From positions 1 to 38,504 of the forward strand of contig JAFRXL010000018.1 in NCBI GenBank assembly GCA_017441505.1: a DNA stretch of 38,504 bases, written 5' to 3'. The translations under genes and the position numbers were made by a program. The stretch is from Ruminococcus sp. GTDB taxonomy: Bacteria; Bacillota; Clostridia; Oscillospirales; Ruminococcaceae. Shown one piece after another: positions 14,254-33,959 of the stretch. Every line of letters begins with the position of its first letter. Positions within the stretch are counted from its first letter, which is position 1. Below the pieces are notes generated by a model. The model did not search any database, was not told the DNA's origin, and worked only from the letters and a program-made list of their open reading frames with translations.

Positions 14254-14260
14254 AAAGATC

Positions 14261-14297
14261 GCCGCCTATGGTCGCATGACCATAGGCGGCTTTATTT
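14261..14297. terminator. Strong hairpin terminator, probably bidirectional
   Basis: A perfect 13-bp stem GCCGCCTATGGTC / GACCATAGGCGGC with loop GCAT (14261-14290), followed on the forward strand by TTTATTT and on the reverse strand by GATCTTTTT. It separates the convergent CPBP gene and anti-sigma gene. Confidence 0.9.
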
Positions 14298-14312
14298 GGA
14301 TGAGTCTGGATG

Positions 14313-16118
14313 TCAATTAATAAATTCTCTGTTAGTTATCATAAAATTATCGAAATCAGTCTTGGAAATCGTAACGTCCATAATATAAGTATTACCAGAA
14401 TGTGAAGTAGTAACTGTTACAACGAAGTCATTTTCATTTATTTCTTTAATTTTTATTCCTTTTAGCTCTTTATACCATGTTAAAGGAGCTACATACAACT
14501 TGTTTTGGAATTCTAGTACAACTGGTATACTAACGTGAACATCATCATCATCAACTAAATCACCTTCCTGAAGACCATTTCTGTTGTCAACTAAACGTAA
14601 TATTAAAGATTCATCTATATATGGTGAATAATATTCGATAACATCGTCCAGATCAGAAAATCTAGGATCTTTAAAAAGTCCGAATCCCATTTCCATTGGA
14701 GTCTGATCTTCTGCTTCAGGAGCCATTGGTACTTTGAAATATACCATTTCATTGAAATCAGCGTCAGGAGAATCTGGAAGAGTATCAAACTCTACCAATA
14801 CCTTAACTAATGTATTAGCAACATTCATTAATTCTTCTTCTGAATAATCTGAAACTGTCTTTGCAGGATCAGCCGTTACAGGTTCTTTTTCTTCAGAAGT
14901 CTCAACAGTTGTCTGTTCAGTTTTTTCAGTAATCACTTCTGAAACATTCTCAGTATTCAGCTCCGTAGTTACTTCTACAGGAACTTCAACGACATCTGTA
15001 GCCGGCTCAGTCTTATTATCAGCAGATTTGTAATAAATATCAGTCATTAATGAAGGAGTGGCTTCGCCCTTGTAGTTCTTGAACATTTCATAGCTGCACT
15101 GTCCCAGAGCGACTTTTGATATTTTCCATTCGCCGCTGTCGTCCATTTCTATAAGGGCATTTACTACCTCAATATTCTCCGGATCATCATTCAGATGATA
15201 GTAACACTCCCAGACGAAAGATGATTCATTTACAGTAAATGCTTTTTCATATGTTACTTCGCAATTTTCCGGATCAAATGAATCCGGCTCATACATTAAA
15301 GTGTAAAGCTGATCTCTGTACTGTATGATCTCGCCGAAATTGCCAACATCCTCTATAACGTCACCGTCTTCATAGTTATCGAAATCAAATTCTGAAATGC
15401 CGTCACACTCGAAATAGCAATTTGATTTTTCATAGAACTTTTCACTTACGTACTGTCCCATAACTTCCTTCATTCCGGCTATTGTATGGAAATCCGGATT
15501 GTTTATCCTATAGAACTTCAGACCTGCATACATTTTACCGTCTTGTTCTTTTAATTCACAGGGGAAATCCTCGCTTTTGAATACAGAAACGCCATAATCT
15601 GCCGCATCACAGAAATAATAATAAAATGTGATATATTCCTGATCCGGGTCATTACGGTCTGTGTCGCTTCCTCTTCTTATAGCCATGTAAGGATTAAACA
15701 GTTTTTCGTATATGCATTTCATCTCCACTTCAGATAACTGAGTGGTTACTGTTTTATCATCAGCTTCTTGAACATCAAAAGTTGTCTCTACTTCTGATGC
15801 TGCCTGCATACTCTCGTTTGACTTCTTTGTTTTATGGAGTGCGGTGAAAGTAGCTGTACCGCCTCCTACGAGCACGAGAGCCGCAGCTGCTGCACAAGCT
15901 GCTCTGTACCATTTCGGCTTGCTGTATTTTTCAACGCCATTAACTGAATTTTCTTCTGTTATCTCAAAATTGCTATTTAAATCATTATATTTCTTCTCAC
16001 TCATAGAAAACACTCTCCTTTTAGTTGCTTCGTCAGCTGACGGAAAGGAATTCAGTTCATCAATGACTTCATTATCAGCATTTTCAAGTATTTCAAGATC
16101 AAAATTATCTTTTTTCAT
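14313..16118 (-). CDS. Probable membrane anti-sigma / sensor protein with large outer region
   Basis: A 601-residue single-pass protein that starts 12 bases after the ECF sigma gene (AGGAGG overlapping the sigma stop codon, 8-base spacing). Cytoplasmic N-terminus (residues 1-70, with a DELNSFPSADEATKRRVFSMSEKKY segment), one Ala-rich membrane helix (about 71-93), and a long outer part. The outer part is in two globular-looking blocks (about 120-375 and 435-601) joined by a Thr/Glu/Val-rich low-complexity linker (about 380-430). Gene order and topology make it the likely antagonist of the sigma factor, but there is no zinc HxxxCxxC motif and I do not recognise a named domain outside. The cell-surface signal it senses is unknown. 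Confidence 0.75.
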   Translation of the reverse strand: MKKDNFDLEILENADNEVIDELNSFPSADEATKRRVFSMSEKKYNDLNSNFEITEENSVNGVEKYSKPKWYRAACAAAAALVLVGGGTATFTALHKTKKSNESMQAASEVETTFDVQEADDKTVTTQLSEVEMKCIYEKLFNPYMAIRRGSDTDRNDPDQEYITFYYYFCDAADYGVSVFKSEDFPCELKEQDGKMYAGLKFYRINNPDFHTIAGMKEVMGQYVSEKFYEKSNCYFECDGISEFDFDNYEDGDVIEDVGNFGEIIQYRDQLYTLMYEPDSFDPENCEVTYEKAFTVNESSFVWECYYHLNDDPENIEVVNALIEMDDSGEWKISKVALGQCSYEMFKNYKGEATPSLMTDIYYKSADNKTEPATDVVEVPVEVTTELNTENVSEVITEKTEQTTVETSEEKEPVTADPAKTVSDYSEEELMNVANTLVKVLVEFDTLPDSPDADFNEMVYFKVPMAPEAEDQTPMEMGFGLFKDPRFSDLDDVIEYYSPYIDESLILRLVDNRNGLQEGDLVDDDDVHVSIPVVLEFQNKLYVAPLTWYKELKGIKIKEINENDFVVTVTTSHSGNTYIMDVTISKTDFDNFMITNREFIN

Positions 16119-19746: not shown

Positions 19747-20904
19747 ATGAGATCAGCATTCAAAAAATTATCAATCAACAAACATAATATCGATGCCGGA
19801 TTGCTGTTTGCTGTTACGCTTTGTGCCATTATAAGTACGCTTCTCATATACTCCATCGTTGAAAGCGGACTTGGTGAGGACGAAGGCGTAGGTGCAAGCT
19901 ACTGGAAGACCCAGCTAATATCTACAGCTGCCGGTCTGTTTGCAGCGATATTCATTTCACTTATGGATTACCGTAAACTCGTAAAGCTATGGTTCATATT
20001 CGCTCCGGCAGCATTGGGACTTGTCGCCCTGACGTTCACCTCGCTCGGATACCAACGATCCGGTGCGGACGATCAGGCTTGGCTAAGGATCGCCGGTTTC
20101 AACCTTCAGCCTTCAGAGGTGTTGAAACTCGCATTCATACTTACTTTCGGCTATCACCTTTCCCGTGATGAGGAGGACATGAACAAACCTGCTCATATGC
20201 TCCTGCTCCTGCTGCACGGAGCTCTGCCTATAGGCATTGTCGGACTACAGGGCGACTACGGTACAGCTATTGTATTCGCTGCTATATTCGGATTCATGAT
20301 ATGCTCCGCAAAAATATCGTGGAAGTATCTTCTTGCCGCTCCATTTGCAATAGGCGGAGCTGTCGCAGGAATGTGGTTCTTCGCACTCGACTCCTTCCAC
20401 AAAAAACGTATAACCATACTCTTCGACCCGGGTTCAGACCCTGAGAATATCGAGTATCAGCAGGACCTCGGTCTTGCAGCTCTTAAATCAGGAAAGATAT
20501 TCGGCAAGGGACTTTTCAAAGATGCCGATGAATATATCTACGTTCCGGAAATACACAACGATTTCATTTTCACATATGTCGGACAGGTTTTCGGCTTCCT
20601 CGGCTCTATCGGACTTCTTATCATCCTCGCTTATATTTGCCTGAAAATATTCGCAGACAGCCGTGTGACCCGTGACCGTCTCGGAAGATTCATCTGCATG
20701 GGAGCTTTCGGTCTGATGCTCTCGCACTGTATAATGAATATCGGTATGGTACTTAAAGTTGCTCCGGTTATCGGAGTTCCTCTGCCATTCCTCAGTGCCG
20801 GCGGTACGGCTATGATAAGTATGTACGCAGTTATAGGTCTTGTGCTCAGCACATACAGTCACAGAGCTGTTACCTATAATGTATTCTACGATGACAACGA
20901 CTGA
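19747..20904 (+). CDS. rodA: RodA/FtsW-family peptidoglycan glycosyltransferase
   Basis: A 385-residue SEDS protein with about ten membrane helices. It polymerises lipid II into glycan strands together with a class B PBP. Family motifs: the FNLQPSEVLKLAFIL segment, GDYGTAIVFAAIF, and near the C-terminus GVPLPFLSAGGTAM. Length is typical of RodA. An AAAGG site precedes the ATG. No partner PBP or mreC/mreD is encoded in the window, so whether it serves elongation, division or sporulation (SpoVE-like) is undetermined. Confidence 0.9.
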   Translation: MRSAFKKLSINKHNIDAGLLFAVTLCAIISTLLIYSIVESGLGEDEGVGASYWKTQLISTAAGLFAAIFISLMDYRKLVKLWFIFAPAALGLVALTFTSLGYQRSGADDQAWLRIAGFNLQPSEVLKLAFILTFGYHLSRDEEDMNKPAHMLLLLLHGALPIGIVGLQGDYGTAIVFAAIFGFMICSAKISWKYLLAAPFAIGGAVAGMWFFALDSFHKKRITILFDPGSDPENIEYQQDLGLAALKSGKIFGKGLFKDADEYIYVPEIHNDFIFTYVGQVFGFLGSIGLLIILAYICLKIFADSRVTRDRLGRFICMGAFGLMLSHCIMNIGMVLKVAPVIGVPLPFLSAGGTAMISMYAVIGLVLSTYSHRAVTYNVFYDDND

Positions 20905-20918
20905 TAAATATAAAAATT

Positions 20919-20951
20919 AAGGCTTCATACAAATCGTATGAAGCCTTTGTT
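20919..20951. terminator. Bidirectional terminator between rodA and the giant surface-protein gene
   Basis: A 12-bp perfect stem AAGGCTTCATAC / GTATGAAGCCTT with 5-base loop (20919-20947). It is followed by TGTTTAT on the forward strand and by AATTTTTATATTT on the reverse strand, so it can serve both convergent genes. Confidence 0.88.
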
Positions 20952-20963
20952 TATGTTATTTTA

Positions 20964-23900
20964 TCACTTCTTACGCTTTTTCATAAGAAGCATTGCAATA
21001 GCTATCAAAGCCAGAAGTCCGCCTGCACCTATTCCCAATGATGCCGACATATTTCTCTGGAAGAATGAAGCTGAAAGCTTAAATTTGATACTGCTCTTTG
21101 AATCTTCTGAATAGTTTCCTGCCTTATCCCTTACGGATACCAGTACATCCTCTGTTGAGTTTCTTCCGGTAGCCTTTATAGGAAGCTCTATGATGATATT
21201 ATTAGCACTGTCGCTGCTCAGTGAAGCACCAAACATACGAAGTCCCTCGACATCGTACTTATGATTGTTTATCTTTACAACAATATCATTGCTGCTCAGA
21301 GCTTCAACATTCTTCATATTCTGATCAGAACAGGTTATCCTGAGCTGTGTTTCAGATTCTTTCAGCACTGCGTTATCATCAACACCTGCTATTATTACTT
21401 CCGGAGATGTTCTGTCAACCGAGAATTCTATTCCGCACTTTCTCTCAGCATAGACCGGAGCATTATTGCTGTTGATATTTCCGGCTTCATCCTTTGACTG
21501 TATATTTATGAGATAATTACCGTCAGAATTGAAATTATCGCTGTTTAACGTGTAAATATACTCATACCAGCCCTCGCCCTCTTCATTATTGTCTTTATCA
21601 CCAGTAGTATTCGATTCGATATTGATCTCAGCTGAACCAAGCTTTTTGGTATCATAACCGTTTCTTATAATGGTGACCTCTCGCTCCTCTGTTATCTCAG
21701 AAGGACTTATCTCTCTTACAACGACCTGCAATTCCTCGCTTATCGGTGTACCTTCCTTGAATTTTTCTATCGCCTCGACAGCCGGAGCATTAATTACTTC
21801 ATATGTTGAACCGTATCTGTTTACAGACACTGTAAGATGCTGAGGTCTTGCTGCGTTTCCAGCCATATCTTCGGCAGTTATGGTGATATTGTAGATACCG
21901 TCTATTTCAGGATCATCACCGAATATATCGTATATCAGCTCATAGCTTGCAGCAGTTGAGTACGTTCCGCTTCTGAATTTTCTTGAAGAGCTGGTATATT
22001 TATTATCGGTCTTGCCGTTTATATCGACCTTCTCTATAACTACATTGCAAAGCTTATCTGCCATTCCCTCATCTGCCATATTGAAGTCAAGGAAAGTAAC
22101 AGACGGCACGAAAATTCCGTTTACAGCCTTTTTATCGGACAATTCTCCGGTGAACGACTGCATTATCTTAGGAGCTGTTGTATCGATAAAGAATGTACCT
22201 GAACTATATGGTGATGCACTGTTTCTTGCAGGATCGGTATAATTCAGTCTGAAAGAGTACTTTCCGTCTCTTGAGAATACAACGCTTGCTGTCCACTCAT
22301 CAGGGTCAGAGCTGCTGCGTTTCCATGAATCAGGCTCTATATTGAGTGAAGGAAGACTTACATAGCTTGTATTATCAGAGTCAAATGCACTCAGATCAAA
22401 CTTTACTGCCTTAGGATCAAAGTTATGATCCACTATCTTTATGGTCGCTTTTCTTGCAGCATGGTAGTATACCTCGTTCTTCACATCATTGTTATCGAAA
22501 GAGGCTGTAAGTACCGGAGCTGTTGTATCGATAGTGAATGCCTCAGATTTTGAAGCTTCGCTCTTATGACCTGCTGCATCAGCTGCTGCCATGCTGAAAG
22601 TATAGTCTGCATCAGCAATGAATGTTACCTTTGCCTCCCAGATATTAGCGTTATCGCTGTCAGTATCCGACTCACCGCTGATGAGTCTCCACTGTCCTAC
22701 TGTATAAGAACTTTCAGCAGTTACAGGTCCGGAAGGATTTGACACAGCCACATTTATAAGTTCATTGAGCTTCTTGGTATCAAGGTTTCTCTCCTTTACT
22801 CTTACTGTAGCTGTTCTGTGAGTATTATAATACTTCTTTCCGTTTACCTCATTTGCAGCATTGTTATCAAAGGTTATCGACTGTATCACAGGAGCTTTAG
22901 TATCTATGGAGAAACTTGCAGATGATGCACTTGAATGTCCCGAATTGCACTTCATGCTGACTGAAAGATCCATATTGCTGCGTTCCTGATTTACAGAAAC
23001 AGCTGCTTCAAGTCTTGTGACATTATTCTTATCCATTTCAGTGATAGTCCAGTTTATGCCGGCAGAGTCCTTGATAACTGAGCCCACTTCGTACCTGTCA
23101 CCGTCGATATGGTCTATACTGCTTATGTCGATATGTCCGGCACTAAGAGCCTGACCGTCAGATGTATTCAACGCCCAGTCAACAGCAGCTATACCGGTAT
23201 TATCCTTTATGACCATAGGTATGCGGACAGCCTTATCATAAAGCTTAACGCCTGTACCTGTAGTCTGATATGCTGTCTCTGGAAGCTGGATGCTTATATG
23301 CTCCTCAGCGTTGTGCTGAGCCTGAGACTCAAGTATTATACCGTCAGGAGTACGCCAGCCGCTGCAGTTTCCTGCATTGTCGAATACTCTTGCGACTATC
23401 TGTCCAGCCCAGTTTGCCGGAACTCTGAATACCGGCTCGGACTTTCCGCTGATAGTATGTATGCCTGCCTGAGCTATAAGACTGTCGTCTATATCAGTTC
23501 CGTCAGGAATAAGACTTGCATCTATGAGTGAGTACTCATAGCGATTGATACCGGAATTTACATTTCCGCTGCTATCATCGGCATTTATTCTTACTACGGT
23601 ATCATCAAAGAAATAGTAACCGTAATCCATTTCCTGTGCAGGATATGAATTATCGTCCTCATCGTCTATTGAATAATCGGATTTATTTTTGTCGAAATAG
23701 AAACTGTTTATAGAAGGAGCAAAGTCCTCAGTTCTGACAGTGAACGAAACCTGCTTGCTCTTATTGCTTACATTGTCGACAGCATCGAATACGTAAGTTC
23801 CATTGCTGCCGGCAGGTATAGTCAGGGTATAGCGTTTTTTCCTGCTGATACCTGTAGCACTGTCTACATCTTCGCCTGCAAATTCGAGTTTTTCTTTTCC

Positions 23901-26900
23901 TAATGAGTTTATGGAATAAACTCCGGATTCCTTATCCTCAGCAGACAATGTCAGAACTACACGTTTATTAGTCCATGAACCGCTTGCGTAGCCTGATCTG
24001 TTTCCGTCACCGTCAACTACGACGGCACTTTCGATCTTCAGCTCAGGAGCTGAACGGTCTATCCTTATCGTCTTTGATACAGGGAAGGACTTGTTCATTG
24101 CAAGGTCCTCAGCTGTTACAGTGATGCTGTTTGAACCATCAGCCATATCAGCCTTGTAGTAGCCTGTATATCTGCAATCAGCACTTTCTGCCGACTCAAA
24201 CAGCTTAGGGTCAGAACTTCTTGAAACGACCTTTCCGTTGACGCTTACGCTCTCTATACCGGAGTACTTATCGGAAGCTTCTACCTTATACTCAAACGGA
24301 GCATTAGTCCAGACTGAATTTTTTGAACTGCTGTAAGCGTGGAATTTAAGTCCGTCGTTATGGTAGAAACCGTTATGATTCCTGTCGCTCTTCTTGCTGT
24401 TTTCGAGAACAGGCTCAAAAGCGTTATCCTTTCCGCCGGAGCGAATTACCGGTGAAATTTTAACGTCCGGAGCTCCGGTTTCAAGATAGAGGTTGATATA
24501 TCCGGTCTCTTCGTTGCTTGGAGTAACATTCTTTATATCGCCGTTTTCTACATTAACGGTATATGAAACTCCGGTTATGCCCATAGAGCTTGCCTGAACG
24601 GTAAATTCTCTGTGGGGGTCCTTATCAGGGTCGAATGTGAATTCGACAGAAGCAGATGCGTCCTCGGGAGCTTTCTCTGCATATACCTCGCCGTCACTGC
24701 TTACCGCACTTATTGTGTCGATAGTAAGCGGTACTACGCTCTTGTCCTCAGCTGTGACCTTTACTGTCATTGAATCATGACCAAAAATACCGAACGAAAG
24801 GAATCTTAGTGTTGATTTGTCTGTTGTAACGTCAAAATCTGTTATCTGTATATCAGGAGCAACTGCATTTACAGTTACGGAAGTCTTTGTTACAACACCG
24901 GTAGTTTTATCGAGGAAATAAATTTCATGCACTTCCTCACCGGTCTGCTGTATCTTCTCATGACAAACCGCTTTAGCTGCCTGTATGAAATTATATCCTT
25001 CAGACTCAGCAGAAGCCTCAAAATAATTGTATTCTGCATCTTCACCGGTAACCTCAATATCATACTCCTCAACCAGAGTGCTGACATTATAGCTCTTGCC
25101 GCTGCCGTTCCAGAGCAGTGAAGAGTCCATAGCCGGATCAAGTCTGTCGTTTATATTTGTTATATCGATAGATGCAGTATTGCTGTTTTCTTCTGCTTCT
25201 GCAAATACTACCTCATAGTTATTTTCTGTTTTTACAGTTTCAGGATCGGTGAGCGATACCATTCCGTTATTTCCGATGACTGCACCGTTTGTCTCAGCCG
25301 CACTGAATATCTCTGTGCCGTTCCTTGTTATGGACTTTACGTAATATCCTGCTTTCGGTACTGCGTTGACTGTTATACTGCCGGAGTAATTTGCATTTCC
25401 GTCAGCATCTATGCCCTGAAGCTCTGCTGTACCGCCCTCACCGGCAGTTACGCTCTGAGCAAAAGCCTGAAGCTCAAACTGTACCTGAACATTATGGCTC
25501 GGAGAATCAAGGTCAAACATTATGTCAACGAGCTTTCTTGTAGGATCATCTTCTCTTACACGAACCCCATTGCTTCCGCCATTGTAATTTACGCTGTGTA
25601 TCATCCACTTATGTGCAGGATTTGATATGTCATCCACACCGTTATCTGTAACTGTAACGAGCAGCTGAGCTCCTGTGATGCCGTGGCTTACATCGAAAGA
25701 ATTCTCTTTACGGTCTTCATATAAGAATCCGCTTGAATGGTGCTGACCTACTATCTCTACCTGTCCTATACCGTCGGCAAGCGGAAATACCTGACCGCTT
25801 CTTGCAAGCTCGGCAAGATCAATGCTGAGGGCAAGGAAATAATTCACCTCAATAGTCGCATTGCAGTGGATGTTAGTGGTATCAATGCTGTAACTTACAG
25901 AACCGTCCGGATTATTCTGCGGCAGAAGCTCCACACGCTTTTTGTCGCTGTCCGGTATGATATACACCTTTCCAAGTGAATAGCCGCTGTTAGGAGTAAC
26001 CGTGAGCAGCCTGTGATCTTCGCTCAGAACAGCTCTTCCGAAGTTTGTATTATTGTTTATAGTAAAATCAGTGCTCTCAATTTTAGTAATGCACCTTATA
26101 TCGCCTGTCATATTACTTTTATCTATGACAAGAGGCTCATTGGTAACTACAGTACCCGTATCGAACTCAACAGCTATCTGATAGACCTTGCCTGCAACAA
26201 CATCAGCATTTGCAGGTCTTACAATAAACTTATCAGCCTGCTCCTCTACTACAAATTCACCGGAATCATTTTTTAGTGTCACTGTGAACGGCTCTGCTGT
26301 AACAGCACCGCTGCCGACTGTATAGAAGAAAGGCTTGGTATATTCGTTAGGGTCTCCGTCTACTCTTACCTTGGAAGCATACGGAGTTATCCTTACTTTC
26401 TCACCGTAATAATAAGGCACAGAATCATCTTTAGTATAACGTTTTATGGTATACGAACTGCTCTCCGGAACATCGCCTGTTCTGAGCTCAGTTACCTTCA
26501 AAACAGTCATATCCGGCTCAAACATATCCGACTCAAACTCAGAGTACTCATCTTCGTTGGATATAAGTATATTTCCTGTATCAGTATAGCCTCTGTGTTT
26601 GATATAATCATACGCAAGAGGTGAAAGGATAGTATTATCATTAAGATAGAAGAAAGAAGTTCCGTTCTCCGGATACACGAACTGAGATGCATTCAGGTCC
26701 CATGTATTTATAGTAACTGAGAGCTTATTGTCGGTAAAGCCATTCAGATCATACGGATTTTCTTCAAGAGTATCCTCTTTTGCAGTTATCTCAACTGTAT
26801 ATGATCCGGCATCCACACCAATCCCTTCAGAGCTCATAGTCTTTCTCTCTTCAACAGACTCCGGATCACTCGGGTCAGCCGGTATAACAACTGTTATGTC

Positions 26901-27182
26901 AAAGAAATTCCTTATAATATCATAGTATTCAACACCTATGACAAACTCTCCGACTATTTCCGGCTCACGGGATGTGATGACCAGACATGAAGGGTACTCA
27001 GATTTGCTGGTAACTATAGCACTTTTTCTGTTTTTGGACACCGGAGCTGCGTCCTCAGCATAGTAAACAGCCGTTATATCCTTATTATTAAGAAGCACAT
27101 TATCCCAGCATAGTGCCGAAACTGTCAGTGCAGCCGCAACCGAAAGTGCGGAGGCACGTTTAGCCAGTTCTCTTTTTTTCAT
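20964..27182 (-). CDS. Giant secreted, membrane-anchored protein with Ig-like modules
   Basis: About 2072 residues. An N-terminal signal peptide (MKKRELAKRASALSVAAALTVSAL), a long extracellular region, and a C-terminal membrane helix (GIGAGGLLALIAIAMLLM) followed by KKRKK. There is no LPxTG-type sortase motif, so it is probably held by the helix. The C-terminal two thirds is built of Ig-like modules joined by recurring IDxxAP-type linkers: IRIDRSAPELK (near 24050), SIDTKAPVIQ (22900), FTIDTTAPVL (22530), FFIDTTAPKI (22180), SVDRTSPEVI (21410). These are typical of bacterial Ig-like/cadherin-like domains with calcium-type D-x-A/S-G-N segments (DNAGN, DEAGN, DKAGN). The start is ambiguous: ATG 27182, or a GTG 9 bases upstream touching the previous stop codon. 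It is the last gene of the kinase operon. Likely adhesin or envelope-spanning receptor; function not known. Confidence 0.85.
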   Translation of the reverse strand: MKKRELAKRASALSVAAALTVSALCWDNVLLNNKDITAVYYAEDAAPVSKNRKSAIVTSKSEYPSCLVITSREPEIVGEFVIGVEYYDIIRNFFDITVVIPADPSDPESVEERKTMSSEGIGVDAGSYTVEITAKEDTLEENPYDLNGFTDNKLSVTINTWDLNASQFVYPENGTSFFYLNDNTILSPLAYDYIKHRGYTDTGNILISNEDEYSEFESDMFEPDMTVLKVTELRTGDVPESSSYTIKRYTKDDSVPYYYGEKVRITPYASKVRVDGDPNEYTKPFFYTVGSGAVTAEPFTVTLKNDSGEFVVEEQADKFIVRPANADVVAGKVYQIAVEFDTGTVVTNEPLVIDKSNMTGDIRCITKIESTDFTINNNTNFGRAVLSEDHRLLTVTPNSGYSLGKVYIIPDSDKKRVELLPQNNPDGSVSYSIDTTNIHCNATIEVNYFLALSIDLAELARSGQVFPLADGIGQVEIVGQHHSSGFLYEDRKENSFDVSHGITGAQLLVTVTDNGVDDISNPAHKWMIHSVNYNGGSNGVRVREDDPTRKLVDIMFDLDSPSHNVQVQFELQAFAQSVTAGEGGTAELQGIDADGNANYSGSITVNAVPKAGYYVKSITRNGTEIFSAAETNGAVIGNNGMVSLTDPETVKTENNYEVVFAEAEENSNTASIDITNINDRLDPAMDSSLLWNGSGKSYNVSTLVEEYDIEVTGEDAEYNYFEASAESEGYNFIQAAKAVCHEKIQQTGEEVHEIYFLDKTTGVVTKTSVTVNAVAPDIQITDFDVTTDKSTLRFLSFGIFGHDSMTVKVTAEDKSVVPLTIDTISAVSSDGEVYAEKAPEDASASVEFTFDPDKDPHREFTVQASSMGITGVSYTVNVENGDIKNVTPSNEETGYINLYLETGAPDVKISPVIRSGGKDNAFEPVLENSKKSDRNHNGFYHNDGLKFHAYSSSKNSVWTNAPFEYKVEASDKYSGIESVSVNGKVVSRSSDPKLFESAESADCRYTGYYKADMADGSNSITVTAEDLAMNKSFPVSKTIRIDRSAPELKIESAVVVDGDGNRSGYASGSWTNKRVVLTLSAEDKESGVYSINSLGKEKLEFAGEDVDSATGISRKKRYTLTIPAGSNGTYVFDAVDNVSNKSKQVSFTVRTEDFAPSINSFYFDKNKSDYSIDDEDDNSYPAQEMDYGYYFFDDTVVRINADDSSGNVNSGINRYEYSLIDASLIPDGTDIDDSLIAQAGIHTISGKSEPVFRVPANWAGQIVARVFDNAGNCSGWRTPDGIILESQAQHNAEEHISIQLPETAYQTTGTGVKLYDKAVRIPMVIKDNTGIAAVDWALNTSDGQALSAGHIDISSIDHIDGDRYEVGSVIKDSAGINWTITEMDKNNVTRLEAAVSVNQERSNMDLSVSMKCNSGHSSASSASFSIDTKAPVIQSITFDNNAANEVNGKKYYNTHRTATVRVKERNLDTKKLNELINVAVSNPSGPVTAESSYTVGQWRLISGESDTDSDNANIWEAKVTFIADADYTFSMAAADAAGHKSEASKSEAFTIDTTAPVLTASFDNNDVKNEVYYHAARKATIKIVDHNFDPKAVKFDLSAFDSDNTSYVSLPSLNIEPDSWKRSSSDPDEWTASVVFSRDGKYSFRLNYTDPARNSASPYSSGTFFIDTTAPKIMQSFTGELSDKKAVNGIFVPSVTFLDFNMADEGMADKLCNVVIEKVDINGKTDNKYTSSSRKFRSGTYSTAASYELIYDIFGDDPEIDGIYNITITAEDMAGNAARPQHLTVSVNRYGSTYEVINAPAVEAIEKFKEGTPISEELQVVVREISPSEITEEREVTIIRNGYDTKKLGSAEINIESNTTGDKDNNEEGEGWYEYIYTLNSDNFNSDGNYLINIQSKDEAGNINSNNAPVYAERKCGIEFSVDRTSPEVIIAGVDDNAVLKESETQLRITCSDQNMKNVEALSSNDIVVKINNHKYDVEGLRMFGASLSSDSANNIIIELPIKATGRNSTEDVLVSVRDKAGNYSEDSKSSIKFKLSASFFQRNMSASLGIGAGGLLALIAIAMLLMKKRKK

Positions 27183-27191
27183 TTCTACCAC

Positions 27192-27656
27192 TCATCCTTT
27201 CATCTGTGCTCTTTTGTTCAAATATATATAATTTCTTCCGTTAACCGCTGAATGAAAAATAATCATAAATAAAGCTAATGACCATACTGCAAACTTTATT
27301 GTCTGCGGTACATCCTTTATTATCATCATTACAACTGCGGCAGCTGTGACCGGTATCGTTATCATATCGACCGGTTTTGCCTGCTTTGTCCGGAAAAATG
27401 CAAATGCTCCCGGAGACAATGTCTTGTCTTCCTTAGAACTATCTTTTTTTCTCGCTCTGTCCAGTATAATAAGCAATACTGTTCCGGAAAGAGTTCCGGT
27501 CCAGAACAGGATACCGACTCCATAAGCAAGTACCCTTCTGATACCGGAGATATTGAAATCCGCAAATATCATCAGCAAAAATGACAGCGGTATGAGCCAG
27601 TAACAGCAAAGCATCAGCATAAATATTTTCCTGAACTTCGCCATATCCCTTTTCAT
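27192..27656 (-). CDS. Small four-helix membrane protein in the kinase operon
   Basis: A 154-residue protein with four predicted membrane helices (about residues 8-32, 38-66, 90-110, 118-138) and a basic loop between the second and third (RARKKDSSKED). ATG 27656 was chosen because GGAGG (27663-27667) lies 6 bases upstream; more upstream in-frame starts lack a site. It lies between the repeat-tail protein (16-base gap) and the giant protein gene (adjacent). I do not recognise a family. Position suggests a role in assembling or anchoring the kinase/surface-protein system. Confidence 0.75.
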   Translation of the reverse strand: MKRDMAKFRKIFMLMLCCYWLIPLSFLLMIFADFNISGIRRVLAYGVGILFWTGTLSGTVLLIILDRARKKDSSKEDKTLSPGAFAFFRTKQAKPVDMITIPVTAAAVVMMIIKDVPQTIKFAVWSLALFMIIFHSAVNGRNYIYLNKRAQMKG

Positions 27657-27672
27657 GATCATCCTCCGTATA

Positions 27673-28671
27673 TCATATATCAATTATTTCCTGAGTATGT
27701 ATGAGCACTATATTTTTGGTGATCTTAAATCCTGAATATACAGGAGCATAGTCACCAATATCTGTCCCCTCAGCCGGTGTTGGCTGTGCTGCCTGAGCTG
27801 TGGCAGGAGCTGCACTGAGCACCGAGGTCTCCTGCGTGCCGTAATCGTCAACTGGTGTCTCTGAGAGCACCGAGGTCTCCTGTGCACCGTAATCGTCAAC
27901 AGGTGTCTCCGAGAGCACCGAGGTCTCCTGTACACCGTAATCGTCAACTGGTGTCTCTGAGAGCACCGAGGTCTCCTGTGCACCGTAATCGTCAACAGGT
28001 GTCTCTGAGAGCACCGAGGTCTCCTGTGCACCGTAATCGTCAACTGGTGTCTCTGAGAGCACCGAGGTCTCCTGTGCACCGTAATCGTCAACAGGTGTCT
28101 CAGAGAGCACTGAGGTCTCCTGTGCACCGTTTATGTCTGCCTGAGCAGCCGAAAGCACTGTAGTTTCAGGCTTTTCGGTTGCGAGCTCATCAACTTTTAT
28201 CTCCTCATTCTGAACTGTCTTCGAAGCTTCCTTATCGGCTGCTGCCGGAGGCTCTACGAGTGCCTTAGGCTTATATGCCTGTTTAAGATACTCCTGCTTT
28301 TCATAGTACTCCTTTGCACTGAAGTCCTCCTGAGGTTTATTAGCTTCTTTTCTTGAAGTTATGTCATTCTTTATCTTGTTGAGCTTGCCGGAAAATTCAC
28401 CGGTAAGTCCGCTTTTCTTCTTTTTGGAATTAGGAGCTATAAAGCGTCCGGTGAGGGAATTTTCCTTCTCCATTTCGTCTATCTTACGCTTCTGAGCTCT
28501 TCCGGTCTTGATATTGAAGATATTTCTTATATCAAATACAAAAAACATTACAATAGCAGCTACAAAGAAGAGTATAGCAAGGATTATGCAGACTATAAAG
28601 CCATTGTGATATAAATTTATCAGCTTTTCAGAGTCCGCAGCAAGTATCATATTAGAAAGTGCAACTCTCAT
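27673..28671 (-). CDS. Single-pass membrane protein with cytoplasmic Thr-rich 16-residue repeats
   Basis: A 332-residue protein. A short N-terminus and one membrane helix (about residues 25-48) are followed by basic residues (RNIFNIKTGRAQKRK), so the rest should be cytoplasmic. After a charged region it carries six tandem copies of TSVLSETPVDDYGAQE (one with VQE, one with TQE), flanked by a degenerate copy (TTVLSAAQADINGAQE) and a partial one (TSVLSAAPA). It ends with a hydrophobic-polar tail. The ET(S/T)VL core resembles the phospho-Thr motif ETTSVF that Ser/Thr kinases modify in GarA/OdhI for FHA-domain binding. With a kinase gene overlapping its start by one base (TAATG), it is a likely kinase substrate. 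No named family recognised. Confidence 0.8.
   Translation of the reverse strand: MRVALSNMILAADSEKLINLYHNGFIVCIILAILFFVAAIVMFFVFDIRNIFNIKTGRAQKRKIDEMEKENSLTGRFIAPNSKKKKSGLTGEFSGKLNKIKNDITSRKEANKPQEDFSAKEYYEKQEYLKQAYKPKALVEPPAAADKEASKTVQNEEIKVDELATEKPETTVLSAAQADINGAQETSVLSETPVDDYGAQETSVLSETPVDDYGAQETSVLSETPVDDYGAQETSVLSETPVDDYGVQETSVLSETPVDDYGAQETSVLSETPVDDYGTQETSVLSAAPATAQAAQPTPAEGTDIGDYAPVYSGFKITKNIVLIHTQEIIDI
27817..28170 (-). repeat. 48-bp in-frame tandem repeat array
   Basis: Six full 48-bp units (27849-28136) with a partial unit (27817-27848) on one side and a degenerate unit (to about 28170) on the other. Units starting at 27849, 27945 and 28041 appear identical, while those at 27897, 27993 and 28089 share CAACAGG instead of CAACTGG. 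The units thus alternate, which points to expansion of a 96-bp dimer. Each unit encodes 16 residues, so copy-number change would not shift the frame. Confidence 0.95.
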
Positions 28672-30449
28672 TATTCCGCACCTCCCTGTTTCTGTCGTGA
28701 CTTAGCTGCATTGCTTACCTGTTCCAAAGTCATATCTATCAGCTTTTTAAGTTCCGCAGCCTGTTTATCGTTATTCTCGGCATAGTAAGTAGGATAAGTG
28801 CTGATCTTTCCGATATTCTCAAGTATCTTGCCAAACTCAGCCTTTATCTCTTCCTCAGTCTTGACTTTGAGGAACTCGTCTGCCTTTGAATAAACGGTCA
28901 CAGCAAAGCTTTTATAGACTGAAAGTGCTATAGTAACAGTTTCGGTACTTTCAAGGTCCATAGCGACCATGGAAGAATAGTCGTTCCAGTAATCAAGGAA
29001 AGAGTACTCATAATAGCCCTCATTGTTTACCTGACCTCTTCCGCCGTCCTTCATAAATTTGGACATCTTAGTAATTATCTCAGCCTTTTCGGCAATTGTA
29101 TCGTGATCCTTACGCTGCTCATCCTCGGCAGCCTTTTTAAGTTCATCAGTGTCCGATATTTTGCTCAGCCATGCGTATGCATACTGAGCACCTGTCTGAC
29201 GAACAGAGCTGTCAGTAATATCAGCATCAGCATCAGTGTTGAAATTGAAATAGTAGTACCTTCCGACATCATAGCAGAAGAGTGCATATGCTGCCGGATC
29301 ACTGTCTTTCAAAGCCTTTTCTCTCGGCTTTTCAGAAGTACCCGAAGTCAGCTTTATGAGTGTAGAGTTCTCCTCAGCCGTCAGCACACCGTCACCTTTA
29401 AAGTAGTTCAGCAGTGCATTATAAGCCTTAGCATCATCAGGTTTCAGCGAAATAGCTTTATTATAAAGATCATATGCTTCATCAGCTTCCGCAGTAGAAG
29501 CTCTGAGCAGATATGAATCGTAGGTATCAGCAGTTTTGCTCTTTTCAAGCGACTTGAACGTCAACGCTCCGCCTACCATAACAAGGCTTAATGCAGACGT
29601 TGCAATGAAAGTTCTCCACTTGAAATTCTGAGCTTTCTTACTTTCAGCATCAAGATCCTGATAGTGTTCAAGTGCATACATAAGCTCTGCACAGGTCTGA
29701 TAACGGTCATCAGGATTCTGCTGTGTACATTTAAGTATTATTTCTTCAAGTCCGGATGAAAGCAGGGAGTTCCACTGCCTTATCGGGTACATCTTATACG
29801 GATATACAGCCGGATTATGACCTGTAACAAGGTGATACATGGTCGCACCAAGGCAGTATATGTCTGTTCGTGGGTCAGTCTGTCCCTGACCTCCGAACTG
29901 CTCCGGAGCAGCATATCCTCTTGTACCAAGACAAGTGGTATCAGCAACACCGGCATATTTGAATTCTCTTGCAGTACCAAAGTCAATAAGTGTTACAGAG
30001 CCGTCAGGCTTGAGCATAACATTGGCAGGCTTCATATCACGGTAGATTATAGGCGGCTTTCTCGAATGAAGATACCCCAGAACGTCGCAGAGCTGCTTTG
30101 CCCATGCTATAACATCATCCTGATCCTGAGCTCCTTCCTCCTGAAGTTTCTTATCAAGAGCATTACCCTCGATATAGTCCATAACGATGAGAAAAGTACC
30201 GTCGCCGTCGATAACATCGACGATGCTCGGAAGATTAGGATGATTGAAACGTTTGAGCATATCTATCTCAGCCACAAGTCCCTGCTTGACAACATCAAAG
30301 TCTTGCTTGCCGTCTTTACGCACTTCCTTGATAGCCCACTGCTTATTGGCTTTCTCGTTCATCGCAAGGTAAACGATACTCATACCGCCCTTGCCGATAA
30401 CGTTCAGTATTTTATATTTTCCGTCAATAACTTGTCCTATTTCCAGCAT
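28671..30449 (-). CDS. Membrane Ser/Thr protein kinase with outer TPR-like domain
   Basis: A 592-residue Hanks-type kinase. The kinase domain (about residues 10-270) has P-loop GKGGMS (19-24), Lys41 in AIKEV, catalytic loop YRDMKPAN with D138 and N143 (HRD is YRD here), DFG at 156-158, and activation-segment end GTRGYAAPEQFGG. One membrane helix (about 285-303) is followed by an outer region containing a TPR-like stretch (AEADEAYDLYNKAISLKPDDAKAYNAL) rather than the PASTA repeats of PrkC/PknB. ATG 30449 gives the normal kinase N-terminus; its ribosome site is weak and the gene is probably coupled to the phosphatase gene 9 bases upstream. It likely phosphorylates the repeat protein encoded next. 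Confidence 0.93.
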   Translation of the reverse strand: MLEIGQVIDGKYKILNVIGKGGMSIVYLAMNEKANKQWAIKEVRKDGKQDFDVVKQGLVAEIDMLKRFNHPNLPSIVDVIDGDGTFLIVMDYIEGNALDKKLQEEGAQDQDDVIAWAKQLCDVLGYLHSRKPPIIYRDMKPANVMLKPDGSVTLIDFGTAREFKYAGVADTTCLGTRGYAAPEQFGGQGQTDPRTDIYCLGATMYHLVTGHNPAVYPYKMYPIRQWNSLLSSGLEEIILKCTQQNPDDRYQTCAELMYALEHYQDLDAESKKAQNFKWRTFIATSALSLVMVGGALTFKSLEKSKTADTYDSYLLRASTAEADEAYDLYNKAISLKPDDAKAYNALLNYFKGDGVLTAEENSTLIKLTSGTSEKPREKALKDSDPAAYALFCYDVGRYYYFNFNTDADADITDSSVRQTGAQYAYAWLSKISDTDELKKAAEDEQRKDHDTIAEKAEIITKMSKFMKDGGRGQVNNEGYYEYSFLDYWNDYSSMVAMDLESTETVTIALSVYKSFAVTVYSKADEFLKVKTEEEIKAEFGKILENIGKISTYPTYYAENNDKQAAELKKLIDMTLEQVSNAAKSRQKQGGAE

Positions 30450-30458
30450 AACAATCAC

Positions 30459-31226
30459 TCAATCCGCTCGGACGAGAATAGCGGTAATATTATCCGTTTC
30501 CCGTCTGTTTTTATTTAGCTCAGTAAAATAAATCAATGTATCCAGCATTGCCTTTTCGTCTGTAAGCATCTGTGAATTCATTCTCTCAAAAAATTCCGAC
30601 GGAGTTACTGTGTGTCTGAATCCATCGCTGCATAGCAGGTAACAATCACCGGACTCTATCTCTTCCGAATAAAAATCTGGAGAAATAACATCGCTCGCTC
30701 CAACGCACTGGAGCAGTACATTTCTCTGGTCGCTAACACTCGCTTCCTCAGGAGTCATACGACCCATATCTATTTCACGCTGTACATAAGTCTGATCTTT
30801 TGTAAGCTGATAGATAGTATCGGTCATTTTATATGCTCTTGAATCTCCGATATTCATTATATAGTACCTTCCGGCTGCAAAAAGCATAACAACGATAGTG
30901 GTGCCGAGACTTACTCCATTCTTCGCACCATATTCTCCTATACGGTGGTTCATATCAAAGGCTATACTTCCAAATGAATTGAATACCGCCTGATGATCTA
31001 CTCCGTTCTGCACTATCTCCGGAAGCTTATTTTTGAACCAATCAGAAAAAGCGTTTATCAGAGCCGCACTTGCGACCTCGCCCTTCGCAAGACCTCCCAT
31101 GCCGTCACATATAACAGCCATAAGGATCCTTCCTATTTCTGTTTCTGCCTCCATTATCAGGGCAGAATCCTGATTTGTTCTTTTTTTAATGCCTACATCG
31201 GTATGAACGGCTGTTAAAAATTTCAT
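30459..31226 (-). CDS. PP2C-family Ser/Thr protein phosphatase
   Basis: A 255-residue PPM/PP2C phosphatase, cytoplasmic, Mn/Mg-dependent. Family motifs in order: KRTNQDS (motif 1), ICDGMGGLAKGEVAS with the metal-binding Asp, LGTTIVVMLF, YIMNIGDSRAYKM, VLLQCVGA, CYLLCSDGF with the second metal Asp, and the terminal RETDNITAILVRAD. It is the first gene of the operon and the expected antagonist of the kinase that follows, a standard phosphatase-kinase pairing in Firmicutes. The ATG at 31226 has only a weak site (CAGG). Confidence 0.94.
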   Translation of the reverse strand: MKFLTAVHTDVGIKKRTNQDSALIMEAETEIGRILMAVICDGMGGLAKGEVASAALINAFSDWFKNKLPEIVQNGVDHQAVFNSFGSIAFDMNHRIGEYGAKNGVSLGTTIVVMLFAAGRYYIMNIGDSRAYKMTDTIYQLTKDQTYVQREIDMGRMTPEEASVSDQRNVLLQCVGASDVISPDFYSEEIESGDCYLLCSDGFRHTVTPSEFFERMNSQMLTDEKAMLDTLIYFTELNKNRRETDNITAILVRAD

Positions 31227-31312
31227 AGTCCTGACACCTTATTTCTGATCTGGATTTTATCTTTAATTATTAAGATAATAATTTTTACTTAATAAAACTG
31301 CACTTTTTATTT

Positions 31313-31341
31313 ATTATACACTATTCGTCATTTTATGTCAA
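31313..31341 (-). promoter_or_regulatory. Perfect sigma-A promoter of the phosphatase-kinase operon
   Basis: Reverse strand TTGACA (31336-31341), 17-base spacer, TATAAT (31313-31318). The leader to the phosphatase ATG is about 80 bases. Confidence 0.9.
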
Positions 31342-31477: not shown

Positions 31478-31520
31478 AAGTTTTTTGTATTTTTGTTATA
31501 TAAAGCTAAACCCACTTTGC

Positions 31521-31549
31521 TTGACACTCCAAACACTGAGTGTTATAAT
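31521..31549 (+). promoter_or_regulatory. Perfect sigma-A promoter with operator-like repeat (two-component/ABC operon)
   Basis: TTGACA (31521-31526), 17-base spacer, TATAAT (31544-31549). The spacer is spanned by an inverted repeat, ACACTC (31524-31529) / GAGTGT (31538-31543), a plausible regulator site. Confidence 0.9.
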
Positions 31550-31601
31550 TACAATAATATTTTGTCTTATTATCGTTTTTAATATAGAGGAGCAAAACAC
31601 A

Positions 31602-32285
31602 ATGCACAACATTTTAATAATCGAAGACGACATTTCATTAAATCAAGGGCTTTCCATATACCTCAGCAAAGAGAATAATACATTTCAGGCATATGAACTG
31701 AAAACTGCTGAAGATATATTCAAAAATAACAAGATCGACCTTATCATACTTGATATTTCACTTCCGGACGGAAGCGGTCTTGAATTCTGTTCAAAAATAA
31801 GAGCAGCTTCAAACGTGCCTATTATTTTTCTCACAGCCAATAATCTTGAAACAGATGTTGTTTCGGGCTTTATAGTCGGCTGTGATGATTTTGTTACAAA
31901 GCCTTTCAGTATGATGATACTTCAGGAACGCATAAAAGCTGTATTAAAGCGATGTGACGGGAATTCATCCATGCGTTTTACTATCGATGACCTTGTACTT
32001 GATTTCGATAATCTGATTTTCTCAAAAGGAGAAAAAACGATAGAACTCAGCAAAAATGAGCAGAAATTACTGAAAAAGCTCATTCTAAACAAAGGTCAGA
32101 TACTTACAAGAGAACAGCTCATGGAAACCATATACAGCAACGATTCGGATTTCATAGTCGAAAATGCACTTAACGTAACAATAAGAAGATTAAGACAAAA
32201 AATTGAGGACGCCCCTAAATCTCCGGTATATATAAAAAATATCTACGGACTTGGCTATATATGGACCGGAGGCATAATAAAATGA
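31602..32285 (+). CDS. OmpR/PhoB-family response regulator (BceR-like)
   Basis: A 227-residue regulator. The receiver domain (residues 1-115) has the acidic pair E8-D9-D10, phospho-acceptor D51 in IILDISLPDGSG, Thr in FLTANN, and Lys in VTKPF. The C-terminal winged-helix domain (about 130-225) has KGQILTREQLMETIY, NALNVTIRRLRQKIE and a GLGYIW end. The start at 31602 has GAGGAG 9 bases upstream; a long upstream extension would read through the promoter. Stop and histidine-kinase start overlap (ATGA). With the kinase and ABC genes it forms a Bce-type operon. Confidence 0.94.
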   Translation: MHNILIIEDDISLNQGLSIYLSKENNTFQAYELKTAEDIFKNNKIDLIILDISLPDGSGLEFCSKIRAASNVPIIFLTANNLETDVVSGFIVGCDDFVTKPFSMMILQERIKAVLKRCDGNSSMRFTIDDLVLDFDNLIFSKGEKTIELSKNEQKLLKKLILNKGQILTREQLMETIYSNDSDFIVENALNVTIRRLRQKIEDAPKSPVYIKNIYGLGYIWTGGIIK

Positions 32286-33190
32286 AGATACTGTTATTTA
32301 TTCTTCTTATTTTATGTGCTGTTGAATTTATCTATATCGTCATTTCAAAAATTTCAGCAATTAATATGTATAAAAAGCTATCAAAAGCGTTTGATGATGC
32401 TATAAACGAAAGACCTGTAGAACTTCATTACGACGAAAGCATCTTATCTGCATTATATGATTCTATATTAAGATACATTAATATAAATAAAAGCAAACTC
32501 GAAGCTGCTGAGCAAGAAAAAGAGTCCCTGCAAATGATAATATCGAATGTCTCGCATCAGATAAGACAGCCTGTCAGCGATGTCTGTCTTTACATCGAAA
32601 TGCTTGCTGAAAAAGATATACAGGATGAAGAAACACGGCTCATGCTGAACGACCTCCACCGGCAGTCTGAAAAACTGAGGTTCCTTTTCGAGGTGATGCT
32701 GAAATCTTCCCGTCTTGAAGCAGGCATAATCGCTGTAAATAATATTAAAAGACAAAGTGTAAGGAAACTCATATCTGATACTATCCCTGAACTTATAACA
32801 TCGATCACTGCAAAAAATATCAATATTTGCGTTGATATAGACGAGGAGGTAACGGCTGATCTCGATTTCAACTGGACAAAGGAAGCTGTATATAACATTA
32901 TCGAGAATGCTGTAAAATATACTCCTGAAAATGGAGTTATATCCATAAAAGCAATATGCTATGAGACATATGTGTGTCTTGATATTTCTGACACAGGTAT
33001 AGGTATCGCAAAAAATGAGTTCAATGATATTTTCAAAAGATTTTATCGCTCCGAATCGGTAAAAGGCTACAGCGGGCTTGGTATAGGACTTTATCTTTCC
33101 CGTGAAATAATCATGAAAGAAAACGGATATATAAAAGTTTCATCGGTTATAGGAAAAGGAAGTACATTCTCGATCTTTCTCCCTTGCTGA
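32282..33190 (+). CDS. Sensor histidine kinase (BceS-like, little outer domain)
   Basis: A 302-residue kinase. One N-terminal membrane helix (residues 3-22), a short linker, dimerisation/phospho-acceptor helix with H92 in SNVSHQIRQPVSD, then an HATPase domain with N box ENAVKYTPE, G1 DTGIGIA and G2 GLGIGLYLSREI. It has almost no extracellular part, so, as in BceS-type systems, it may sense through the ABC transporter encoded downstream. Starts in a 4-base overlap with the response regulator; GGAGG is 9 bases upstream. Confidence 0.93.
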   Translation: MKILLFILLILCAVEFIYIVISKISAINMYKKLSKAFDDAINERPVELHYDESILSALYDSILRYININKSKLEAAEQEKESLQMIISNVSHQIRQPVSDVCLYIEMLAEKDIQDEETRLMLNDLHRQSEKLRFLFEVMLKSSRLEAGIIAVNNIKRQSVRKLISDTIPELITSITAKNINICVDIDEEVTADLDFNWTKEAVYNIIENAVKYTPENGVISIKAICYETYVCLDISDTGIGIAKNEFNDIFKRFYRSESVKGYSGLGIGLYLSREIIMKENGYIKVSSVIGKGSTFSIFLPC

Positions 33191-33283
33191 AAAATAACAG
33201 CTTTATTATTTTTCGGTAATTATTCAGTAACTATTAAAATATATAATTACTTCATTGATCTAAATTTCAAGGAGTGAAGTCAA

Positions 33284-33958
33284 ATGGAAGTATTAAGAGC
33301 AGAGAAACTTGTCAAACATTATGGTAAAAATCCAAATATCGTGCGTGCATTGAATAATGTGAATATTTCTGTAAAGAGTGAGGAGTTCGTTTCTATAACA
33401 GGAACAAGCGGAAGCGGAAAAAGCACTCTTCTGCATCTTCTCGGAGGTCTCGACCGACCAACATCGGGTCAGGTGTTTGTAGGGGATAAGAATATTTTTA
33501 AAATGAACGATGACGAGCTGACTATTTTTCGCCGCAGAAAAATAGGTTTTGTTTTTCAGAATTATAACCTTATCCCGATATTAAATGTCTATGAAAATAT
33601 CGTTCTGCCAACTAAACTTGACGGCAAACAGCCGGATACAAAATTTGTGGACGAGATAATCGAGTCACTTGGTCTGACTAAAAAAATAAACAGCTATCCG
33701 AATAATCTCTCAGGCGGACAACAGCAGAGAGTTGCAATTGCCCGTGCACTTGTTTCAAAACCGACTATTCTTCTCGCTGATGAACCTACCGGAAATCTCG
33801 ACAGTAAAACAAGTATGGAAGTCATACTGCTTTTGAAAAAAATGAATAAGCAGTTCAAGCAGACTATAATCATTATTACTCATAATGATGAAATAGCTCA
33901 GATGACCGACCGCATCATACGTATTGAAGACGGAAAGATAGTTTCGGGGGAAAAGTGA
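33284..33958 (+). CDS. ABC transporter ATP-binding protein (BceA/MacB/LolD type)
   Basis: A 224-residue ATPase with Walker [11 protein letters not shown]-loop [10 protein letters not shown], signature [15 protein letters not shown], Walker [13 protein letters not shown] and H-loop ITHND. These are the features of the type VII (mechanotransmission) family. AAGGAG lies 9 bases before the ATG. It follows the histidine kinase by 93 bases, a gap containing TATAAT (33242-33247) without a clear -35 box and a 9-bp inverted repeat (33189-33197/33206-33214), so a regulated internal promoter for the transporter is possible. Confidence 0.95.
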
Positions 33959-33959
33959 T

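Follow-up and report, generated by a model that had tools for sequence, protein, structure and literature searches.

What could be the role of a tandem array of short threonine-containing motifs in a bacterial membrane protein encoded next to a protein kinase? The question is raised by a five-gene operon in a 38,504 bp stretch of Ruminococcus sp. DNA (GenBank assembly GCA_017441505.1, contig JAFRXL010000018.1, positions 1 to 38,504), hereafter the window, which represents contig C49 of a draft genome of 2.24 Mb in 57 contigs (79.6% complete). The operon is located on the minus strand and encodes, in this order, a PP2C phosphatase, a membrane kinase, the array protein, a small membrane protein, and a giant Ig-like protein. 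We consider it fairly probable that the operon is the F-D-H-I part (phosphatase F, kinase D, array protein H, and giant protein I) of an apparatus of the T7SSe type, a subtype of the type VII secretion system (T7SS), without an adjoining ATPase gene, and that H serves FHA proteins as a multisite phosphothreonine dock, which the kinase writes and PP2C erases. The F, D, H, I layout is already known from T7SSd/T7SSe; the T[ST][VIL]L motif in the H tail is new here, and no paper on this motif in an H-type protein was found in the open part of PubMed Central, as judged by titles and the openings of abstracts.

The array protein (H-type membrane protein, 332 aa, 27673-28671, minus strand) was compared using an alignment of 7 sequences and 75 homologue rows. 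It has a single hydrophobic stretch near the N-terminus, followed by a basic stretch, a disordered-looking tail, and a conserved C-terminal end (F-x-I-x-K-x4-IHT-x-E-x-I in the alignment of 7); here and below, membrane topology, including the cytoplasmic side of the array, signal peptides, anchors, and transmembrane (TM) stretches were judged by eye from the sequence. The tail contains 8 motifs, one every 16 residues (ETTVL once and ETSVL seven times), where the sequence-only reading of this DNA had counted seven-odd ET(S/T)VL repeats. The array (27817-28167, minus strand; tandem-repeat and motif searches) is built from the 16-aa unit ETSVLSETPVDDYGAQ and is a true tandem repeat with a period of 48 bp, 6.5 copies, and a 94% match in the DNA. 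With the register set by comparison with DgcB, OdhI, and GarA, the predicted phospho-acceptors are Thr170, 186, 202, 218, 234, 250, 266, and 282. No FHA domain was matched in H by Pfam. The Pfam matches PMI_typeI_C and DUF1120 were rejected as low-complexity noise, since they were weak and confined to the repeats, and no stretch passed by itself. Two further open reading frames (ORFs) crossing the array, 27708-28127 (minus) and 27855-28163 (plus), are taken as by-products of the 48-bp repeat and not as genes. The motif pattern occurs at 54 sites in the DNA of the same genome, 8 of them in the array, versus 70 for the reversed pattern; single motifs elsewhere in the genome are therefore at chance level.

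A search of 125 genomes of the genus with the array protein gave 8 matched genomes: its own, six with homologues, and one (G060) dropped because of ten stops inside the match. The order of PP2C, kinase, array protein, small membrane protein, and giant was retained in all six relatives, two of the giants being cut by contig ends. The sequence-only reading had proposed a comparison of gene neighbourhoods; array-protein homologues adjoin the kinase in 6/6 relatives, so that within the genus they stand beside kinase genes rather than mostly away from them. The window and G065 have ETSVL as their repeat core, G037, G030, G024, and G016 have EGTSVL, and G031 has QTT[IV]L; thus, the T[ST][VI]L part is constant and its surroundings change. 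The homologue in G065 is 94-95% identical to the window protein and has 9 motifs versus 8. At the family level, 297 genomes yielded 10 matches, one of them its own genome. Four of the nine others were examined for neighbourhood, of which G352, G175, and G193 have the match beside a kinase, and G261 has it 1.8 kb from a kinase match; G154, G168, G235, G313, and G395 stood outside this check, the matches in G235 and G313 being confined to the repeats of frames of about 740 aa. A wider scan of named genomes with the kinase was limited to the best 80 of 479 loci, mostly titled Lachnospiraceae or Ruminococcus. PP2C was located upstream in 75/78 of these loci, an H-type ORF downstream in 74/76, and a giant ORF, recognised by homology or size, in 52 of the 55 loci long enough to judge.

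The motif statistics were calculated on 75 H rows, leaving out L097 and L098 (an unrelated ORF follows the kinase) and L046, L062, and L090 (the contig ends before a further ORF). T[ST][VIL]L occurs 135 times in these rows, and 300 shuffles gave 2.0 on average and 7 at most; the figure of 135 is not a count of independent events because the rows are related and the repeats copy themselves. At least one motif was found in 54/75 rows, at least two in 35/75, and at least four in 11/75. With a preceding [EGDNQ], the core was observed 105 times in H (1.05 expected) and 95 times in the trypsin-FHA class described below (1.5 expected), versus 4 times in a control set of 483 other ORFs of the same loci (5.1 expected). 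The 11 longest arrays show a near-constant spacing of 8, 10, 11, 13, 16, or 20 residues, and these six unit lengths suggest several independent array expansions, although the 16- and 20-residue units may share an origin. Because the units were picked by their motif, their comparison is no measure of the conservation of the motif itself. In L077 and L084, the ORF following the kinase contains similar H arrays, which are decaying copies: units in them have lost the motif and read AASLL or ANSLL, and the C-terminal end is shortened.

The same motif recurs beside an FHA domain. An FHA protein is encoded upstream in 47/69 of the wider loci, and a gene for a trypsin-like-TM-FHA protein stands directly upstream of PP2C in five of the six genus relatives (not in G065); the trypsin and FHA domains were confirmed by Pfam in L034 and L079. 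In 56 of 60 FHA-protein matches, the FHA domain is preceded within 150 residues by a looser form of the motif, frequently doubled as GET[TS][VL]L. An alignment of 48 sequences shows the Thr and Leu of each copy conserved to 90% or more and an FHA pocket that is invariant at G, S, R, H, and N. The likeness of ETSVL to the GarA/OdhI site pointed out by the sequence-only reading is thereby backed, and the PDB sequences nearest to this FHA family include DgcB, EmbR, GarA, and OdhI. The self-ligand of DgcB, GarA, and OdhI is hydrophobic at -3, +2, and +3 around the bound Thr, with Glu at -2 and Ser at +1 (PMC6733907). The register found here is Thr at 0, Thr/Ser at +1, mostly Val/Leu at +2, and Leu at +3, as fixed by the choice of pattern; Glu occupies -1 in 52% of cases in H and 84% in the linkers, and -2 in 38% in H. 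The fit is therefore good on the C-terminal side of the Thr and partial on its N-terminal side, since +1 to +3 agree and -3/-2 mostly do not. The trypsin-like domains of L035 (6668-8206) and L036 (6201-7718) are likely pseudoproteases, as the catalytic Ser is gone (GNAGGP) and so, judged by eye, is the His; among 46 homologues, the Ser is kept in 31, lost in 3, and unlocated by pattern in 12.

The motif of H and that flanking the FHA domain also vary together. In T7SSe-type loci, H has a TVVV-like motif and the flanks of the J-type FHA domain are likewise TVVV-like, and in L148 TGLL is found in both H and the FHA protein. In the latter protein (13626-14816), the FHA domain is itself preceded by an array of ATGLL motifs (4 exact copies); array growth is thus not confined to H. 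The motif classes agreed in 67 of 69 pairs (permuted partners: mean 36.4, maximum 50), a match to be read as a few concordant switches and not as a statistic, because the permutation ignores descent, near-duplicates are present, and the classes change few times. These pairs were drawn from 86, of which 2 had no located FHA domain and 15 no class on one or both sides; from L150-L201, L153-L156, L166, L170, L177, and L181-L183 were left out for misfit to the kinase pattern and others for lack of an FHA protein in a short locus. For the V/L and S/T traits, rank correlations between H and the FHA protein were 0.67 and 0.76 over 39 loci. Sign tests on the kinase tree could not reach significance either for the classes or for these finer traits, with 2 to 4 pairs on starred branches. 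The only TxDT locus, L168, has a kinase-tree branch of 5.5 and was given little weight.

The kinase, phosphatase, and giant of the operon correspond to known T7SSe parts, which comprise the kinase D, phosphatase F, H, the giant Ig-like I, the FHA protein J, the YukD-like B, and the ATPase C (Garrett 2024, PMC11217815), besides K, with a single TM and a short stretch in the cytoplasm, and a second WXG100 protein, A2. The sequence-only reading had known of no described system with this layout; that statement does not hold, as D, H, I, and F were reported as T7SSd/T7SSe parts in 2024 (PMC11217815). The D-type Ser/Thr kinase (28671-30449, minus strand; Pfam Pkinase E 1.3e-46; alignment of 7) has a hydrophobic stretch C-terminal to the catalytic domain, and then an outer region whose AlphaFold2 model is nearly all helical (mean pLDDT 93.2) and which is partly recognised by TPR profiles, in agreement with the TPR-like outer domain proposed earlier. 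Its catalytic motifs YRDMKP, DFG, and APEQ are present, and those of the phosphatase are retained as well, as read from the sequence and the kinase alignment. The phosphatase of F type (PP2C/PPM, 255 aa, 30459-31226, minus strand) matched Pfam PP2C_2 (E 7e-9) and, below the cut-off, the NCBIfam Stp1/IreP family. A PASTA kinase (PknB/Stk1) was rejected, given an NCBIfam score of 198.6 bits against a cut-off of 450, a match covering only residues 7-276, and no Pfam PASTA match. The I-type giant (20964-27182, minus strand) has 2072 residues from its ATG and is Ig-like, as the sequence-only reading had described it, with matches to Pfam Big domains; its N-terminus is signal-like, and at the C-terminal end a hydrophobic stretch precedes KKRKK. 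The small hydrophobic membrane protein (27192-27656, minus strand; alignment of 7) had no family match in Pfam or NCBIfam, and its homologue adjoins H in all six genus relatives. In several loci a second kinase gene lies 3' of the giant (L020, 18878-20000, with HNDIKP and GSGGTGTV motifs), and 16 ORFs of this type were classed among the neighbouring ORFs.

A fuller T7SSe-like cluster is present on contig C53 of the same genome (locus L125, 26000-45999). Its order is an FHA protein, PP2C, kinase, an H-like protein, a giant, two genes without assignment, an 88-aa protein, and EssC with an FHA domain, after which two WXG100 matches follow, one above the cut-off. The 88-aa protein has no Pfam match and is labelled YukD by position alone; as the YukD family of Pfam had no match in the window genome, the ATPase served as the T7SS marker in its place. 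The window giant is homologous to the C53 giant (26% over 1084 aligned positions, E 8e-56), as is the window kinase to the C53 kinase (26% over 596 aligned positions). H and the C53 H-like protein share gene order and a similar C-terminal end, with a BLAST E of only 0.7; equating the array protein with TseH thus stays provisional, given the non-significant BLAST. No EssC-type ATPase, YukD-like, or WXG100 gene was found among the ORFs of the operon region, the EssC and WXG100 genes of this genome being on C53, and the window locus contains no J-type FHA protein, FHA proteins with PP2C beside them being located on C53 and C34 (DUF6382 was not scanned). None of the four FHA matches in the genome falls in the window. 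The nearest one, on C34 (locus L124, 66000-84000), has EGTVVL before its FHA domain and an adjoining PP2C gene; the FHA partner of the array in this genome is uncertain. The C34 protein is 700 aa long and contains extended repeats of the EKKPEPVKEE type, and G065 has the same FHA-PP2C pair (L131, the FHA protein cut by the contig start).

Across other module genomes the link with secretion was found to be partial. Eighteen regions upstream of EssC matches in 15 genomes were inspected, and 11 of them hold the module (L134-L138, L141, L142, L144, L145, L147, and L148); L139 contains the end of the giant and the second kinase, and of the six regions without the module five are cut by contig ends and one, L143, is of full length. 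EssC was detected in 25 of the 39 module genomes examined (18 strong matches, one split, and six more). The remaining 14 showed only FtsK-like or weak scores, their completeness being mostly not known; incompleteness contributes to this absence, since G448 lacked even an FtsK match, and a 1523-aa frame with a weak match in G423 could be an ATPase of another kind. WXG100 matches were obtained in 7/7 EssC-bearing and 0/8 EssC-less genomes tested. Among the EssC-less records are some titled as strains: Blautia sp. An81, Lachnoclostridium sp. An131, Fusibacillus kribbianus, and Anaeromicropila populeti. Hence, the module is a relative of T7SSe, though seemingly not tied to it, and the window operon was not filed as T7SSe.

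Comparison with described systems helps to place the array. T7SSd and T7SSe share with the window the membrane kinase D, helical in its outer part in TscD and TsdD, the PPM phosphatase F, FHA proteins, and the giant Ig-like I with a signal peptide and a C-terminal TM stretch (PMC11217815). Their H is given as one TM helix with a short unstructured cytoplasmic part, whereas the window H has a long motif array; their FHA protein is DUF6382-FHA, whereas the upstream FHA protein of the relatives is trypsin-like-TM-FHA; and the window, in which no ATPase, YukD, or WXG100 gene was seen, also differs by the small membrane protein between H and I (PMC11217815). The word 'trypsin' does not occur in the main text of PMC11217815, and its available passages mention no H motif. 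Garrett, Higginson and Palmer (2024) raise threonine-phosphorylation control of the T7SS subtypes with kinases and FHA domains as a possibility, with no site named in those passages (PMC11217815). In PknG, several phosphothreonines of a disordered N-terminus dock the FHA domain of OdhI/GarA and raise ETTS phosphorylation (PMC8546545). The likeness to PknG-OdhI/GarA consists of a TPR kinase, recruitment of an FHA substrate via a multisite phosphothreonine segment, and an ETTS motif beside FHA; in the window, however, the kinase sits in the membrane, and the multisite segment is found as tandem repeats in a membrane protein of its own (PMC8546545). GarA and OdhI carry motif and FHA in one cytoplasmic protein, unlike H, which has the motif without an FHA match; the trypsin-FHA proteins of the relatives combine both, as GarA/OdhI do, and add a protease domain and a hydrophobic stretch. 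In the type VI secretion system, PpkA phosphorylates TssL and Fha reads phosphorylated TssL (PMC3953482), so that there too a kinase marks a Thr in a membrane component and secretion is switched on when an FHA protein recognises the mark, but with one Thr, other proteins, and a Gram-negative machine (PMC3953482). DgcB has a Thr-Ser-hydrophobic-hydrophobic self-ligand beside its FHA domain, with known structures; it differs in having a single motif without a tandem array and a cyclic-di-GMP output (PMC6733907).

According to the proposed mechanism, an envelope signal would enter via the outer TPR-like domain of kinase D or via the giant protein I, and the kinase would phosphorylate every T[ST][VIL]L copy of the cytoplasmic H tail at its first Thr. 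Each phosphorylated motif would be an FHA ligand, which would make H a membrane-bound dock with a valency following the repeat number. The docking proteins would be those with the same motif beside their FHA domain (trypsin-like-TM-FHA in many relatives, J-type in T7SSe-type loci); once docked, they may themselves be phosphorylated and alternate between a docked and a self-bound form, and PP2C would reset the phosphorylation state. The window system would then combine PknG-type and PpkA-TssL-Fha-type features, namely, a TPR-like membrane kinase, a separate multisite dock, and FHA proteins with the motif in cis. The gene set, its conservation, the motif statistics, motif sharing, the FHA pocket residues, and the T7SS linkage were observed here; from them we infer the phosphorylation, the docking itself, the signal, and the direction of output. 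The FHA-docking platform suggested by the sequence-only reading is strengthened as a prediction by the comparison, in that the motif stands beside FHA domains and the homologues beside kinases.

Several observations weigh against the dock. The strict core is missing from 21 of the 75 H rows, most of which have an ETxxL-like site; L060 contains only VTELL, L107 and L108 nothing by the patterns used, the L084 array has lost the strict core, and L077 has it in only 2 copies. At -3 the motif is mostly not hydrophobic, and Glu is mainly at -1 and not at -2 as in the DgcB consensus. Two pairs, L036 and L070, are discordant in class; the classes and the co-variation test were defined after the sequences had been seen, with near-duplicates included (L164 repeats L038), and each protein changes class only 4 times on the kinase tree, so that common descent accounts for part of the match. 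Neither the window operon nor that of G065 has a trypsin-FHA gene beside it, and the two genomes, each incomplete, have trypsin-like and FHA matches only in separate proteins; at a completeness of 79.6%, the gene may simply be missing from the window genome assembly. Furthermore, Lys replaces the usual Arg contacting the phosphothreonine (GR, after Gly) in no fewer than 90% of the 48 trypsin-FHA rows, and AlphaFold2 of linker plus FHA gave a linker pLDDT of about 50 and no confident docking. The last two points would suit a different explanation, in which the motif is a shared kinase substrate site: D would phosphorylate H and the FHA linker in parallel, altering the conformation of H or its contacts with the giant or small protein, and H would not be a dock. 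Motif sharing follows equally from one kinase with one specificity. We nevertheless regard parallel phosphorylation as unlikely, because the motif matches published FHA self-ligands at +1 to +3 (PMC6733907) and stands beside the FHA domain in 56/60 proteins, and because arrays with near-constant spacing suit avidity better than a single switch.

Replication slippage offers another account, in which the array is a passive low-complexity spacer and the motif matters at one copy only. The near-identity of the array units in DNA, the strict core found once or never in 40/75 H rows, the copy number of 8 in the window against 9 in the 94-95% identical G065 homologue, and the decayed copies in L077 and L084 fit this account. 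On the other hand, six unit lengths with different spacers all multiply the same four residues, and the window array has no broken unit, with a motif every 16 residues while spacers vary, which makes a passive spacer improbable. A further possibility concerns the operon as a whole, which might be a working second F-D-H-I set for the T7SSe-like system of its own genome, serving the C53 ATPase. C53 does hold the FHA protein, PP2C, kinase, H-like protein, giant, YukD-position protein, EssC, and then the WXG100 genes, and elsewhere the module is beside EssC in 11/18 regions. Yet C53 already has its own F, D, H, I set; other genes lie 3' of the giant in the window, G065, G016, and G030 (in G037 the contig ends inside the giant); and in 14/39 module genomes no EssC match was seen apart from FtsK-like or weak scores, with no WXG100 match in the 8/8 of these tested. 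Such a second set is, in our judgement, doubtful. The dock within an F-D-H-I module remains the explanation we favour.

As the sequence-only reading had stated, the five reverse-strand genes stand behind one perfect promoter, which was confirmed by ORF reading and a 12/12 consensus match in the promoter scan (sigma-70-type, TTGACA-17-TATAAT, 31313-31341, minus strand), and the kinase stop overlaps the array-protein start, as it had also noted (TAATG at 28671). A terminator-like hairpin 3' of the giant gene (20919-20947, minus strand; -18.1 kcal/mol, z -7.9) closes the operon. The scan of the window gave 37 promoter sites versus 23.6 in shuffles, so little weight was placed on weak sites; only two were perfect, the second being on the plus strand (31521-31549). 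Divergent two-component and ABC transporter-like genes (31485-36392, plus strand) lie behind this second promoter; G016, G024, G030, and G037 have other genes upstream of the module, which were identified by eye as response regulator, kinase-like, and ABC-like. A gene of the ftsW/rodA family (19747-20904) is convergent with the giant gene, and the module is near it also in G065 and G016.

Taken further, and only tentatively, T7SSe-derived envelope signalling modules, with or without a secretion ATPase, might use, as a graded FHA dock, a tandem phosphothreonine array whose length can evolve, with writer specificity, array motif, and FHA self-ligand drifting together by lineage into insulated codes (TSVL, TTLL, TVVV, and TGLL). 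For H itself, the motif provides a candidate role and names the exact threonines. It predicts FHA partners in gut bacteria, e.g., [Ruminococcus] torques, Faecalicatena, and Butyrivibrio, and the arrays would represent a natural series of repeat numbers for valency studies in bacterial phospho-signalling. Since the motif is common to H and the predicted FHA partner in related bacteria, it allows a direct test of how T7SSe-like systems may be switched.

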